Made by a program: the position numbers and the translations under genes. Positions 548 through 12,524 of a DNA stretch of 13,193 nt are shown in pieces. The DNA is from Prevotella sp. UBA7764 (GTDB lineage Bacteria; Bacteroidota; Bacteroidia; Bacteroidales; Bacteroidaceae), in the NCBI GenBank assembly GCA_002481295.1, contig DLDU01000012.1:55767-68959 (forward strand), written 5' to 3'. The notes beneath the pieces were generated by a model. The model had not been told where the DNA came from. It did no database searches and worked only from the letters and a program-made list of their open reading frames with translations. Every line of letters begins with the position of its first letter. Positions within the stretch are counted from its first letter, which is position 1.

Positions 548-610
548 CCCGCACACCTTATTATATATATAGACACATCAACAATAAATTCATCTCAACA
601 ACCCATACAG

Positions 611-1234
611 ATGAAAAAAGCATTTCTCTTTCTGCTGCTCAGCCTGCTGACAGTAGCCACACATGCACAAGGTTATTACACAAAATACTATGCCGACAAA
701 GCCTTCGTCAAAAAGGCGCAGGACTGGATGAACAGCGGTGCCTGGCGTGAGGGATTCACGGCAGCAAGTCCTCACTCCACCGTCAACGCCGCTGAGTTCT
801 ATACACAATATCAGAAAAATCCGGAGCAGTGGAAGGCACTCTTCAGCTGGTTGGCAAAGACAGACTTACTCGCACTGCCCAAGGGACGCACGCCGATTCC
901 CGGCTCTACGCTTGTCGCCAGTGTGGAAGACGACGTCAACCGGGAGCTCAGCCAGCAGCGGTCTGAGAGTCATCACCATCATATCGACTTCCAATATGTC
1001 GTGAAAGGCACGGAGCGCTTCGGGCTCATCGACCACTACACCAGCAAGATCAACGTGCCCTACCGCCCCGATGTCGTGCACTATGCCTATGACGTGCAGC
1101 GTGCCCGCTTCTACGACAGCGACCCGCAGCACTTCTTCCTCTTCTTCCCCGGCGACTGGCACATTGCTAAAGTGAAGACCGACAGCGGTGACCAGCACAT
1201 CCGTGTCGTCGTCGTAAAGGTTGACTATCTCTAA
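611..1234 (+). CDS. Exported YhcH/YjgK/YiaL (EbgC-like) family protein
   Basis: This 207-residue protein belongs by motif to the YhcH/YjgK/YiaL (DUF386) cupin-fold family, whose members are linked to sialic acid and other sugar metabolism, including sugar-anomer handling and the EbgC beta-galactosidase subunit. The family signature is clear: a His-rich HHHHIDFQYVVKG block near residues 121-133 and FFPGDWH near 178-184, which together would form the metal/ligand site of the barrel. Unusually, it starts with a clean signal peptide: MKK, a leucine-rich core, and a likely cut after Ala-19 or so (ATHA/QG). It should therefore be periplasmic or membrane-associated, whereas classical family members are cytoplasmic. 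The ATG at 611 is chosen because it opens the signal peptide and lies downstream of the promoter box. No sugar-pathway genes are adjacent, so the substrate is unknown. Confidence 0.85.
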   Translation: MKKAFLFLLLSLLTVATHAQGYYTKYYADKAFVKKAQDWMNSGAWREGFTAASPHSTVNAAEFYTQYQKNPEQWKALFSWLAKTDLLALPKGRTPIPGSTLVASVEDDVNRELSQQRSESHHHHIDFQYVVKGTERFGLIDHYTSKINVPYRPDVVHYAYDVQRARFYDSDPQHFFLFFPGDWHIAKVKTDSGDQHIRVVVVKVDYL

Positions 1235-7771: not shown

Positions 7772-8836
7772 ATGTTTAATCATATCTTAGACAGAATAAG
7801 GCTCCCCTTCCGAAAGGATAAGGAGCTTTATTCTTCTTTATACCATATCATCGGTGTGTATCCACACAACATCAGCTATTACAAAATGGCGCTGATGCAC
7901 AAAAGTGTCATGCACCGCAACAAAAAAGGGAAACCCGTCAACAACGAGCGACTCGAATTCCTGGGCGACGCCATCCTCGACGCTGCGGTAGGCGACATCG
8001 TCTACCGACACTTCCCCGGCAAGCGGGAAGGCTTCCTCACCAACACGCGATCAAAACTCGTGCAGCGCGACACACTCAACAAACTGGCGATGGAGATGGG
8101 CATCAACAATCTCATCCTCTCCAGCGGACGCTCCGCCACACACAACAGCTATCTCGGTGGCAACGCTTTCGAGGCACTCGTCGGCGCGCTCTATCTCGAC
8201 CGTGGCTACGACGCCTGTATGACGTTCCTCAAGAAGCGCATCCTCTCGCAGATGATCAACATCGACAAGGTGGCTTACAAGGAGGTGAACTTCAAAAGCA
8301 AGCTCATCGAGTGGAGTCAGAAAAACAAGGTAAACCTCGACTTCAGCCAGACCACACAGAGCAAGGATGCCAACGGCAATCCTACCTTCTGCTGCGTCAT
8401 CAAGCTCGAAGGCCTTGACGGATGCATAGGCAAGGGCTTCTCCAAGAAGGAGAGCCAGCAGAAAGCCGCCAAGGACACCCTCGATAAACTCAAGCGCGAA
8501 CCGCAGTTCATCGACAGTGTCTTCGCCGCCAAGGCCAGCCGCACCAAGATGGAAGAGGAGCCGGTACAGGATGTGCCCAGCACCAGCGAGGCTGAAGCTT
8601 TCGTCAAGACGACAGACGCTTCCCGCAACATGGGGCCGAAGCACGAGACGTCGTTCCGCGAGCAGGTCTTCTCCGAAGAAGACAGTGCACTCGAGCAACC
8701 TGCCAACTCTGTAGAGGCAAAGGAAGAGGAATTCGACCTGAGCGACATCAGTGCACGCGAGAAAACCCGTGAGGAGATCATCGCTGCCGCTGAAGAGGCT
8801 GCCTTCGTTGAAGACGGAGACAATCAGAAACAATAG
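7772..8836 (+). CDS. rnc: Ribonuclease III with an acidic C-terminal extension
   Basis: This double-strand-specific endoribonuclease matures rRNA and processes structured mRNAs. The RNase III domain occupies about residues 20-160 with signature NERLEFLGDAIL (E59, E62, D66). A double-stranded-RNA-binding domain spans about 172-241. At 354 residues it is about 110 longer than usual: residues 250-354 form a low-complexity, Glu/Ala/Ser-rich tail that looks disordered. In the second catalytic motif, where E. coli has Asp-114 and Glu-117, this protein reads GNAFEALVGALYLD, so the Asp is Asn-131 while the Glu is kept (E134). I recall the same NAFEA form in other Bacteroidota, so it is probably active. 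The gene starts 24 nt after fabF and ends just before a strong terminator, closing the operon. Confidence 0.95.
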   Translation: MFNHILDRIRLPFRKDKELYSSLYHIIGVYPHNISYYKMALMHKSVMHRNKKGKPVNNERLEFLGDAILDAAVGDIVYRHFPGKREGFLTNTRSKLVQRDTLNKLAMEMGINNLILSSGRSATHNSYLGGNAFEALVGALYLDRGYDACMTFLKKRILSQMINIDKVAYKEVNFKSKLIEWSQKNKVNLDFSQTTQSKDANGNPTFCCVIKLEGLDGCIGKGFSKKESQQKAAKDTLDKLKREPQFIDSVFAAKASRTKMEEEPVQDVPSTSEAEAFVKTTDASRNMGPKHETSFREQVFSEEDSALEQPANSVEAKEEEFDLSDISAREKTREEIIAAAEEAAFVEDGDNQKQ

Positions 8837-8858
8837 CTTTTATTCTATCCATACGATG

Positions 8859-8903
8859 ATGATGGGCCCAACCTCGCCGTAGGTTGAGCCCATCATTGTT
8901 TTT
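8859..8903 (+). terminator. Rho-independent terminator after rnc
   Basis: A 16-bp stem with one mismatch (8859-8874 with 8881-8896; arms ATGATGGGCCCAACCT and AGGTTGAGCCCATCAT) encloses a 6-nt loop and is followed by TGTTTTT. It lies 22 nt beyond the rnc stop codon and is the clearest terminator in the window. It isolates the acpP operon from the non-coding region to the right. Confidence 0.9.
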
Positions 8904-8904
8904 C

Positions 8905-9483
8905 TACGCCAACCTCCTTATGCCTCTACAACCTACGAACAATGACACCGTCAGGCTGACACGCCCTCCTCATGATCTTTCATATACTTTATCCGATCAT
9001 GTTTACATAGCACATGATACACGATCAGTGATCCATAAAATCTTATTCACTATACACAATACATTGTCATTTCTATGTGGATAACCCTGTGGAAAACTGT
9101 GGAAAAACCCCGGAATAACTTTATGCTTATCCACACGATCGTGTCGAAAAGCCACGGACTGGGGATATCCACAGTCTTTTGCGAACAATGCGACAAAGTT
9201 TTCCACGCTTTTACACCGAAAAAAGATATAAACTTATTATCTTTGCACAATAGTTGATAATTGTGGATAAGTAGACAATGAGCTGATAAACAAAGAGAAG
9301 ATATTCAACCACGGTGTGCATCTCTCTGCATCCCGTGTTGATATCCTTATCTCCAAATTTTTCCGACTTCTCATATCAACTTTTCCACATTACATCATCA
9401 TACTATTATTTCTTTTTTTATAGAAGAAAGACTAATAGAATAATAATGAATGGTGGATAACACCGAAAACGGAACGCATACGC
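8905..9483. other. Candidate chromosomal replication origin (oriC): DnaA-box cluster
   Basis: This AT-rich stretch has no credible gene. It holds three perfect DnaA boxes (TTATCCACA or its complement): 9076-9084 (minus), 9127-9135 (plus) and 9262-9270 (minus). Six near matches are at 9088-9096, 9098-9106, 9165-9173, 9199-9207, 9381-9389 and 9452-9460; five differ at one base and 9199-9207 at two. A very AT-rich tract at 9390-9450 (long T and A/T runs) could be the unwinding element. Five GATC sites lie at 8974, 8995, 9023, 9029 and 9138, the last inside the palindrome ACACGATCGTGT (9133-9144), which overlaps a perfect DnaA box. By rough hand count the plus strand changes from C-rich in rnc to G-rich in nadA, though both genes lie on the same strand. 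dnaA is not adjacent, so origin status is inferred from box density and skew. Confidence 0.75.
9238..9245 (+). promoter_or_regulatory. Putative -7 promoter box inside the origin region, facing nadA
   Basis: TATCTTTG, followed by CAC, is a full match to TAnnTTTG and resembles strong Bacteroidota promoters. No good TTTG lies at the -33 distance. It is the only good box found between the rnc terminator and nadA, and would give a leader of about 230 nt crossing part of the DnaA-box cluster. Confidence 0.4.
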
Positions 9484-10482
9484 ATGGAGACAATCAAAGA
9501 GGAATGGAAGGAAAAAGGATTCGTCGATGAGCCGGTTCCCGAGGGACTGGACTTGAAGAAGGCTATCCGGCAACTGTGCAAGGAGAAGGATGCCATCATC
9601 CTGGCGCATTACTATACCGTGGGCGACATTCAGGACATCGCTGACTTTGTCGGTGACTCCCTGGCGTTGGCGCGCAAGGCTGCCGACACCGATGCGAAGA
9701 TGATGGTGATGTGTGGCGTGCACTTCATGGCTGAGACGTGCAAGCTGCTCTCGCCCGACAAGACGGTGCTCTGTCCGGATCTCACCGCGGGCTGCTCGCT
9801 GGCTGACAGCTGTGACGCTGCAGACCTGAAGAAATACAAAGAGGAGCATCCGGGTTATCAGGTGGTGAGCTATGTCAACACCACGGCGGCCGTCAAGGCC
9901 CTCACCGATTGTGTGGTCACCTCGGGCAATGCCGAGAAGGTGATGGCGAGCTTTCCCAAGGACGCGAAGATCATCTTTGGACCGGACTATAACCTGGGCA
10001 ACTATATCAACAGCGTCACGGGGCGTCACATGCTCTTGTGGAATGGCGGCTGTCATGTCCATGAGAAGTTCTCCGTTGACGGCATCGTGAAGCTCAAGCA
10101 GGAGCATCCTCATGCTGTGGTGATGGCGCATTTGGAGTGCAAGGCTCTCGTGCTGGCGATCGCCGACGTGAAGGGTTCCACTGCCACAATGCTGAAATAC
10201 GCGCAGGCGCATCCCGAGGTAAAGGAGTTCATCGTGGCCACGGAGGCGGGTATCTTGCACGAGATGCAGCGCACGTGTCCCGATCAGACTTTCATCCCCG
10301 TACCGCCGGAGGTCAGCGAGGGTGGCTTAGGCTGTTCATGCAACGAGTGCGAGTACATGAAGAAAAACACGTTGGCTAAGATCTACAACGCCTTGAAGTA
10401 CGGTTGGCCCAGCGTAGAGATAGACCCCGCCATCGCCCGAGAGGCCGTAAAGCCCATCCAGCGCATGCTCTCGCTGTCGTAA
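9484..10482 (+). CDS. nadA: Quinolinate synthase A
   Basis: This 332-residue enzyme condenses iminoaspartate with dihydroxyacetone phosphate to quinolinate in de novo NAD synthesis, using an oxygen-sensitive [4Fe-4S] cluster in the cytoplasm. The three pseudo-symmetric NadA repeats are visible. Likely cluster ligands are Cys-104 in DLTAGCSLADSC, Cys-219 in MAHLECKA (most family members read AHPEC) and Cys-289 in CSCNECEYMKKNTL. The motifs AHYYTVGDIQDIADFVGDSL near the start and VATEAGILHEM near 251-261 are typical. Length is normal. The ATG at 9484 is preceded by a purine-rich stretch but no clear Shine-Dalgarno. Its usual partners nadB and nadC are not in the window. It begins directly at the right edge of the candidate origin, 24 nt after the last DnaA-like box, and converges on the 71-aa peptide gene. 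Confidence 0.96.
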   Translation: METIKEEWKEKGFVDEPVPEGLDLKKAIRQLCKEKDAIILAHYYTVGDIQDIADFVGDSLALARKAADTDAKMMVMCGVHFMAETCKLLSPDKTVLCPDLTAGCSLADSCDAADLKKYKEEHPGYQVVSYVNTTAAVKALTDCVVTSGNAEKVMASFPKDAKIIFGPDYNLGNYINSVTGRHMLLWNGGCHVHEKFSVDGIVKLKQEHPHAVVMAHLECKALVLAIADVKGSTATMLKYAQAHPEVKEFIVATEAGILHEMQRTCPDQTFIPVPPEVSEGGLGCSCNECEYMKKNTLAKIYNALKYGWPSVEIDPAIAREAVKPIQRMLSLS

Positions 10483-11096: not shown

Positions 11097-12524
11097 TTAC
11101 TTCAGGATGACTTTATGGCCGTTGACGATGACCAGGCCTTGATAGTTGTTGTTGACGCGCTGTCCCACGAGGTTATAGCGCACGCCGTCCGTGTTCTTAG
11201 CCTCTACTACGCCATTGCTGATGTCGGTGGTAGTGTTGCTGATGGCATAGTAGGGTTTAGCGGAAGAAGCGGCGGGGAGCGTGAGGTTGCCTTTGAAAGG
11301 TGCCAGCGTTTCACCTGCCTTCACGGGATAAAAACTGCAGCCGTCGCCATGCTGAGCCAGCACATAGATGGAGAAGGCAGTTGGCACCTTTGTGTCTGTA
11401 TCACCGAACTTCAGGTCGTTGTCAGTGATTGTCGTTCCCGGATCGCCTTGCTGCAAGTCATACGTTCCAGCGTTGCCCTTGACGACGACTGCCGTATTGC
11501 CGGGGATGGCTGTAACGGGAGATAGCGTCACCTGATTGGCGGTAGTATCGTACTTTACCGTGTAAGCGCTGAGATTACTGGTATTAGAGAAGTCCACAAA
11601 GGTGGCCCATCTGGCAGTGCTTATCTTTGCCTGATCTATACATTCACTGATGCTTAGCAACTGTACGTTCTTTAGTACTTTAGCATCATTATTTGTATCT
11701 ACAGTAGCTGCAAGGACGACCTCGTCACCACGAACAATCTGAAAGGCATTCGATATTTTAGTATTTTGAAGATATCGTCCGTTTAATATTCTGAGAGTTT
11801 CAGCAGCATTTTCGGCGTCAGCTATGTAGTAGTTGAGCGTGGGACAACTGCTGTTGTATGTATTGGTCTTGGCGACCTTTGCCTTGATATATACTTGAGT
11901 GCCGTTGTCAGTTTTAAGAGCTTGTGCAACAGAGATTAGTTCGTTCTCTTCTACCTTTTTAAAGTTTTGTGAGATCACCTTGCTTCTTTCACCATTTACG
12001 TAGGCTACGGCTTTCACATTGGTGGAGCTTTTTAGTGAAAAAGGTGCCGTGTATGCTGTGCTCTGATCTGTAGGTTCTGTGCCGTCGGTAGTGTAGTAGA
12101 TCTTGGCATCTTGATTTTCGCTACTGAGCGTCACAGAAGTACTGTCGAGAAATGAGGTGGAGCCGGAGATATGAGGAGTGCTGTCTGAAGTGTAATAGGC
12201 TATTTTAGAGATTTGAATAGAGCCATTTTGCGTAGCTCTACTATTTAGGGATAAATAAAATTTATAATAGCAATTTTTTGGGGGTTGTGGAATTACACAT
12301 GATACAATACCACCTTTTTTGAAAATAGTTGTAATGTAGATTGTTTGTGTAATTTTGCTAAAGTTTGAATCTGTACTTATTAGAATTTGTGCATAGTTTA
12401 CAACTTGGGGTGTTATTTTATCAACATTGATATCTATTTTAGATACAGCTTTTTCATATGGTTGCATATTGATTATATATGCATTTGACATTTCATTTTT
12501 CTTCCGCATTTCACGTATTTCCAT
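11097..12524 (-). CDS. Secreted multidomain protein, C-terminal part (frameshifted from its signal peptide)
   Basis: This 475-residue frame encodes most of an exported protein but has no signal peptide of its own. From about residue 11 to 112 it holds the second part of a beta-rich domain whose first part is encoded at 12473-12718 in another frame. A chitobiase/beta-hexosaminidase C-terminal-like domain follows at about 117-188 (IYYTTDGTEPT), then an OB-fold-like domain at about 195-292, a further beta-rich module, and a C-terminal tail (YNLVGQRVNNNYQGLVIVNG, then HKVILK). That tail resembles the ends of many Prevotella outer-membrane or secreted proteins, possibly a short type IX sorting signal. 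No catalytic site is recognised. Adding one A to the A5 run at 12496-12500 would join both frames into a protein of about 540 residues. The annotated ATG at 12524 is probably not a natural start. Confidence 0.72.
   Translation of the reverse strand: MEIREMRKKNEMSNAYIINMQPYEKAVSKIDINVDKITPQVVNYAQILISTDSNFSKITQTIYITTIFKKGGIVSCVIPQPPKNCYYKFYLSLNSRATQNGSIQISKIAYYTSDSTPHISGSTSFLDSTSVTLSSENQDAKIYYTTDGTEPTDQSTAYTAPFSLKSSTNVKAVAYVNGERSKVISQNFKKVEENELISVAQALKTDNGTQVYIKAKVAKTNTYNSSCPTLNYYIADAENAAETLRILNGRYLQNTKISNAFQIVRGDEVVLAATVDTNNDAKVLKNVQLLSISECIDQAKISTARWATFVDFSNTSNLSAYTVKYDTTANQVTLSPVTAIPGNTAVVVKGNAGTYDLQQGDPGTTITDNDLKFGDTDTKVPTAFSIYVLAQHGDGCSFYPVKAGETLAPFKGNLTLPAASSAKPYYAISNTTTDISNGVVEAKNTDGVRYNLVGQRVNNNYQGLVIVNGHKVILK

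Follow-up and report, generated by a model that had tools for sequence, protein, structure and literature searches.

A DnaA-box cluster upstream of nadA is very probably the chromosomal replication origin of a Prevotella draft genome

Described origins and the setting of the locus

A chromosomal replication origin (oriC) located beside dnaA, dnaN or gidA is common, and such a location is not required. The oriC of Escherichia coli lies away from dnaA and combines DnaA boxes in mixed orientation with an AT-rich unwinding element on one side. The Prevotella locus described here is alike in these respects, with a distant dnaA, boxes in both orientations and a probable unwinding element at one side. 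It differs from the E. coli origin in its flanking genes, and the 13-mer repeats of the latter are not demonstrated in the Prevotella segment.

In Bacteroidetes, oriC is commonly far from dnaA according to the text of PMC4755523, and because of this the origins of Bacteroidota are hard to locate. In the same source, the oriC of chromosome I of Prevotella intermedia OMA14 is an Ori-Finder prediction. As described there, it shares with our locus the presence of multiple DnaA boxes, a GC-skew transition and a position not near dnaA. This likeness is one of description, and the word nadA is absent from the main text of that article. The other close model is the basal unwinding system (BUS), found in Bacillus subtilis among other bacteria. 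PMC8287927 presents it as a DnaA box followed by a short spacer and at least three NAN triplets. The search rule given in that source allows up to two mismatches in the box and a spacer of 0–16 nt. The Prevotella locus has the same layout, with TTTTCCACA as the box and a spacer of 4 nt; it differs by an extra conserved block ~130 bp away and by being known from its sequence alone.

A literature search combining oriC, quinolinate synthase and replication origin returned 0 papers, and we found none tying oriC to nadA in Bacteroidales in the titles and abstract openings among the matches listed. We do not claim priority for the place of this origin; DoriC may list predicted origins of relatives. 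Origin positions are needed for growth-rate estimates from metagenome coverage, for genome rotation and for the design of origin plasmids.

The locus is part of a 13,193-bp stretch of DNA that was analysed as a whole (hereafter the window). It belongs to a 76,208-bp contig, C8, of a 2.85-Mb draft assembly that comprises 71 contigs and is 88.6% complete. The closest named relative that we found for its nadA gene, with 98% identity, comes from the uncultured Prevotella isolate RUG318, and the organism is accordingly called a Prevotella here. From left to right, the window contains a YhcH-family gene, mutS, genes for a family 9 glycosyltransferase and a DUF4254 protein, fabF, rnc, the box cluster and nadA. 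The first of these, a YhcH/YjgK/YiaL-family gene at 602–1234 (plus strand) upstream of mutS, is ordinary. The DnaA-box region is non-coding and lies between rnc and nadA. No tRNA was found within the window, and an Rfam scan of 8800–9700 gave a single chance-level match, far under the gathering score. In this genome dnaA is located on a different contig, C64, and the cluster accordingly has no dnaA beside it, as a preliminary description of the window had surmised. The immediate neighbours of the cluster are as follows.

7772..8836, plus strand: rnc (ribonuclease III), upstream neighbour (TIGR02191, 186 bits, above cut-off)
8859..8896, plus strand: likely rnc terminator, an inverted repeat with 16-nt arms (94% complementary) followed by a T-run; outside the origin
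9484..10482, plus strand: nadA (quinolinate synthase), downstream neighbour (NF006878, 410 bits, above cut-off)

DnaA boxes and the putative unwinding module

A box scan identified three exact and five one-mismatch DnaA boxes on both strands inside 9076–9460, bearing out the count and the mixed orientation that had been reported for these 385 bp. Two weaker boxes were read by eye. In the list below, offsets are relative to the conserved block.

9076..9084, minus strand: exact DnaA box; most relatives have a box near offset −150
9088..9096, minus strand: DnaA box TTTTCCACA, one mismatch; several relatives have a box near −138
9098..9106, minus strand: DnaA box TTTTCCACA, one mismatch; several relatives have a box near −127
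9127..9135, plus strand: exact DnaA box; several relatives have a box at −98 or −99
9165..9173, plus strand: DnaA box ATATCCACA, one mismatch; several relatives have a box at −60 or −61
9199..9207, plus strand: weak box TTTTCCACG, two mismatches, read by eye, within the stretch AAGTTTTCCAC that is conserved in the alignment
9225..9247, plus strand: conserved block GATATAAACTTATTANNTTTGCA, carrying TAnnTTTG
9252..9260, minus strand: weak box TTATCAACT, two mismatches, read by eye
9262..9270, minus strand: exact DnaA box, +37 from the block
9381..9389, plus strand: DnaA box TTTTCCACA of the putative unwinding module, one mismatch (box scan)
9390..9393, plus strand: 4-nt spacer TTAC between box and triplets
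9390..9451, no strand assigned: AT-rich tract, probable duplex unwinding element
9394..9420, plus strand: nine consecutive NTN triplets, ATC ATC ATA CTA TTA TTT CTT TTT TTA, which read as DnaA-trios (3'-NAN-5') on the other strand
9452..9460, minus strand: box-like TTATCCACC, one mismatch, facing the AT-rich tract; absent at that offset in nine relatives

The 13-kb window harbours 13 matches at up to one mismatch; shuffled sequences had 2.98 on average, and 13 was reached in none of 200 shuffles. Exact boxes number only 15 in the whole 2.85-Mb draft. The cluster is their sole grouping in this 88.6%-complete assembly; apart from its three, exact boxes on the same contig of the draft are at least ~8 kb apart. 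At up to one mismatch, 673 matches were found genome-wide, which corresponds to 0.09 expected per 385 bp. For eight or more boxes in a 385-bp interval, the Poisson probability is ~1e-13 at a fixed position and ~1e-9 once multiplied by the number of 385-bp places.

On their right side, the boxes adjoin the AT-rich tract also noted in the preliminary description, whose A+T content is 82% vs 50% for the window. The box at 9381 and the start of this tract make up a layout in which the BUS search rule finds one mismatch, a spacer of 4 and nine triplets, with NAN on the opposite strand. None of 1000 shuffles scored as well as the box, spacer and trios of 9381–9420. We also looked, in the 300 bp upstream of nadA, for a box (two mismatches allowed) separated by four letters from a following ATCA. 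This pattern is present in 27 of 80 named loci; it occurred in 16 of 1600 shuffled sequences and in 2 of 324 other windows. ATCAT after the spacer is invariant in ten genomes of the genus. A mirrored combination of a minus-strand box and triplets, also nine in number, starts from 9452; we did not rely on it because its box is missing at that offset in nine relatives.

This organization suggests how initiation might proceed. DnaA would bind the left array (9076–9173) and the boxes at 9262 and 9381. From the latter, it would extend across the triplet repeats (9394–9420) and would open the AT-rich tract (9390–9451), where helicases would be loaded. Replication forks would then leave the opened tract in both directions.

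Conservation and GC skew in relatives

Because the genome is a draft and its own contig is uninformative for skew, the case for oriC was built on relatives. The raw cumulative skew of this 76-kb contig has its minimum at the cluster; once gene orientation is modelled, the upward step at that place adds nothing, and the strongest modelled steps are downward ones, located 14–15 kb and 69 kb into the contig.

The 23-bp block GATATAAACTTATTANNTTTGCA was searched for, with up to one mismatch, in 121 genomes of the family, i.e. this one and 120 others. It occurs exactly once, always free of mismatches, in 10 of the 11 genomes of the same genus, and in none of the 110 other family genomes. The reversed pattern, used as a control, had no match in any of the 121. 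The only genome of the genus devoid of the block, G099, has no nadA match either. As the pattern was drawn from seven loci of the genus that had already been seen, seven of the ten hits are not independent; the single copy per genome, the absence from the 110 genomes and the hits in G116, G042 and G068 are.

Around the block, box offsets recur near −150, −138, −127, −104, −98, −65, −60, +37, +91 and +156. The full set is found in no single genome, and +37 is occupied in all ten block-bearing genomes (10/10). Over ~435 bp, the relatives are 49–59% identical to the window. In the ten-way alignment, a run of 20 columns that spans the beginning of the block is invariant, as is TTTGCA after it; the alignment rows were chosen by the block pattern, and the invariance of the block there is partly due to this selection. 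Block variants occur in other named loci, and a slightly looser form of its first part is present in 20 of the 36 closest ones. The middle motif, at up to two mismatches, was found in 47 of 80 nadA upstream regions vs 5 of 205 control windows, using a pattern picked after some of those same nadA loci had been seen. Thus, the site and the spacing of its boxes are conserved within the genus, which answers the comparison proposed in the preliminary description, and they are only partly conserved outside it.

GC skew was sampled in six chromosomes or near-complete contigs (contig C1 of G116 being the largest of about 20), each represented by 20 stretches 20 kb long, with denser sampling around the candidate site in G108, G004 and G116 and one N-rich bin dropped in G004. 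The skew was corrected for gene orientation by regression in 5-kb bins. Origins were scanned every 10 kb, with the terminus placed 0.38–0.62 of the way round. For permutation tests, one straddling stretch was dropped per chromosome, the terminus was set opposite the site and the stretches were permuted 5000 times. The lines below give the best-fit origin, the site, the grid positions that fit better than the site and the permutations that reach the observed effect.

G108: 1.50 Mb, site at 1.510 Mb; 1 of 353 positions; 0 of 5000 permutations
G116: 0.84 Mb, site at 0.839 Mb; 0 of 327 positions; 17 of 5000 permutations
G098: 3.21 Mb, site (nadA) at 3.205 Mb; 0 of 417 positions; 8 of 5000 permutations
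G042 C1: 0.01 Mb, site (module) at 0.017 Mb; 0 of 180 positions; 0 of 5000 permutations
G004: 2.64 Mb (loose, range 2.62–3.11), site at 2.666 Mb; 27 of 329 positions; 48 of 5000 permutations
G063: 1.85 Mb (range 1.61–1.99), site (nadA) at 1.785 Mb; 39 of 293 positions; 72 of 5000 permutations

The skew check that had been suggested for the cluster thus gave, in relatives, a clear switch at the site in four of the six sampled chromosomes and a loose one in a fifth, G004. In G063, which has neither the block nor a box in the 600 bp preceding nadA, the switch is weak and broad. Among the sampled relatives that harbour the module, the switch is clear in G108, G116 and G042 C1 and loose in G004. 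For contig C2 of G068, the raw sign, without orientation correction, was as expected in seven of eight short samples. The skew variance explained by an origin at dnaA vs one at the module is 0.63 vs 0.87 in G108 and 0.72 vs 0.72 in G004; for dnaA vs the nadA site, the values are 0.63 vs 0.76 in G098 and 0.10 vs 0.16 in G063.

The cluster at 9076–9460 is therefore very probably the chromosomal oriC, as had been proposed from the window; this is the best explanation, and the skew and the box spacing of the relatives agree with it. We infer that the genome under study behaves like these relatives. In kind, the locus is very probably an ordinary origin, located far from dnaA.

G098 belongs to another genus, and no box at up to one mismatch was detected within 600 bp upstream of its nadA gene (L172). 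Its skew switches at nadA though no TTATCCACA-like box is found there, and a related middle motif, TTAACTTTGCA, is present. Since the switch occurs at nadA without such a box, the DnaA boxes of G098 may have diverged, or its origin may merely be close by.

nadA as a landmark and alternative roles of the cluster

We surveyed the neighbourhoods of 80 named nadA loci, 58 of which include the full 10 kb upstream. Of the 36 loci whose nadA is at least 70% identical (L077–L112), 31 have at least three boxes (up to one mismatch) in the 600 bp upstream of nadA; the five misses include L098, with only 158 bp upstream. Among the 44 remaining named loci, 10 have at least three. Outside these 600 bp, 78 of the 80 loci have fewer than 0.5 boxes per 600 bp. 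The 22 nadA loci from outside the genus labelled L013–L034 have at most two boxes in any 600 bp. Because box counts upstream of nadA fall outside the close clade, nadA is a good landmark in that clade and a partial one beyond.

The preliminary description had put forward the position between rnc and nadA as a landmark, and only half of this pair held up: in the close clade the cluster usually adjoins nadA, with the exception of two genomes, G042 and G068, and rnc is no such landmark. The rnc gene is adjacent and co-oriented in a single locus of the 80, the near-identical L077; seven further loci have it no more than 10 kb away, on the opposite strand. Of the 80 named loci, 33 have a gene for a SpoU-family methylase (PF00588, as tested with the copy of L137) in the 2.5 kb upstream, and 32 of these 33 genes are oriented divergently to nadA. 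The methylase gene is also found in two of eight loci of the genus; the window has rnc at that place. With the nadA neighbourhood and the 23-bp tag, a single-copy sequence in all but one of the 11 genomes of the genus, origins can be found even in draft genomes of the clade.

The frequent association of at least three boxes with nadA in the closest named loci, together with the presumably promoter-like TAnnTTTG of the block, would also be expected if DnaA regulated nadA as a transcription factor, independently of initiation. However, in G042 and G068, which belong to the same genus, the block and boxes are intact, and the contig that carries them has neither nadA nor dnaA, both of which are located on the second contig. 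In G042, the module lies between a DUF3108 gene and the gene for the small subunit of ribonucleotide reductase; in G068, it is flanked by reading frames near-identical to those of G042. Both genomes (L220 and L221) consist of two contigs, and dnaA and the oriC-like module are on different ones. As the module is away from nadA in these genomes and the skew switch of G042 goes with the module, regulation of nadA is strongly disfavoured as its reason to exist; G042 largely refutes this explanation, which we regard as very improbable. Eight boxes in 385 bp also appear to exceed the needs of a promoter, in line with the earlier argument that one regulated gene needs fewer.

E. coli has sites for the titration or reactivation of DnaA, datA and DARS, and a dense DnaA-box cluster of that sort, far from dnaA and away from the true origin, would appear alike. 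However, the skew of relatives switches at the site, the AT-rich tract and the trio layout are attached to the cluster, and the 88.6%-complete genome contains no second cluster of exact boxes that could act as the origin. This role seems to us just as improbable as that of a nadA regulatory region. Lastly, the low-GC stretch at the right of the window and contig, and the two chromosomes of some Prevotella mentioned in PMC4755523, might point to the origin of an integrated mobile or secondary replicon, but the surrounding mutS, fabF, rnc and nadA genes and the presence of the module genus-wide, including in the single-contig chromosomes of G004 (3.3 Mb) and G108 (3.5 Mb), make this scarcely credible.

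If the cluster is oriC, as we favour, the role of the block deserves attention. Although not a DnaA box, it is conserved more strongly within the genus than any other part of the module. The minus strand of the block resembles the AT-rich tract, with 77% complementarity over 22 nt between 9219–9240 and 9397–9418. We take its TAnnTTTG to resemble the −7 promoter motif of Bacteroidota. Judging from these sequence features, the block could promote transcription of the downstream gene and assist opening, or it could represent a second opening element. A broader proposal, which we consider speculative and rather unlikely, is that the origin of Bacteroidales goes back to an ancient module, inherited in a position upstream of nadA and containing two opening elements, the trio tract (9390–9451) and the block (9225–9247). 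Given the resemblance of its minus strand to the tract and the exact box to its right, at 9262, the latter could be a second opening site of opposite direction or be recognized by an undescribed initiation factor dedicated to this lineage. The block raises a testable question on initiation in this group.

Further right in the window, a gene on the minus strand (11097–12524) codes for a 474-residue protein with Fn3_assoc and chitobiase C-terminal domains. Low-GC DNA starts beside this gene, with a GC content of 30% near 12.2–13.2 kb and of about 35–47% to the end of the contig. This DNA to the right of the origin may be foreign or a recent acquisition.
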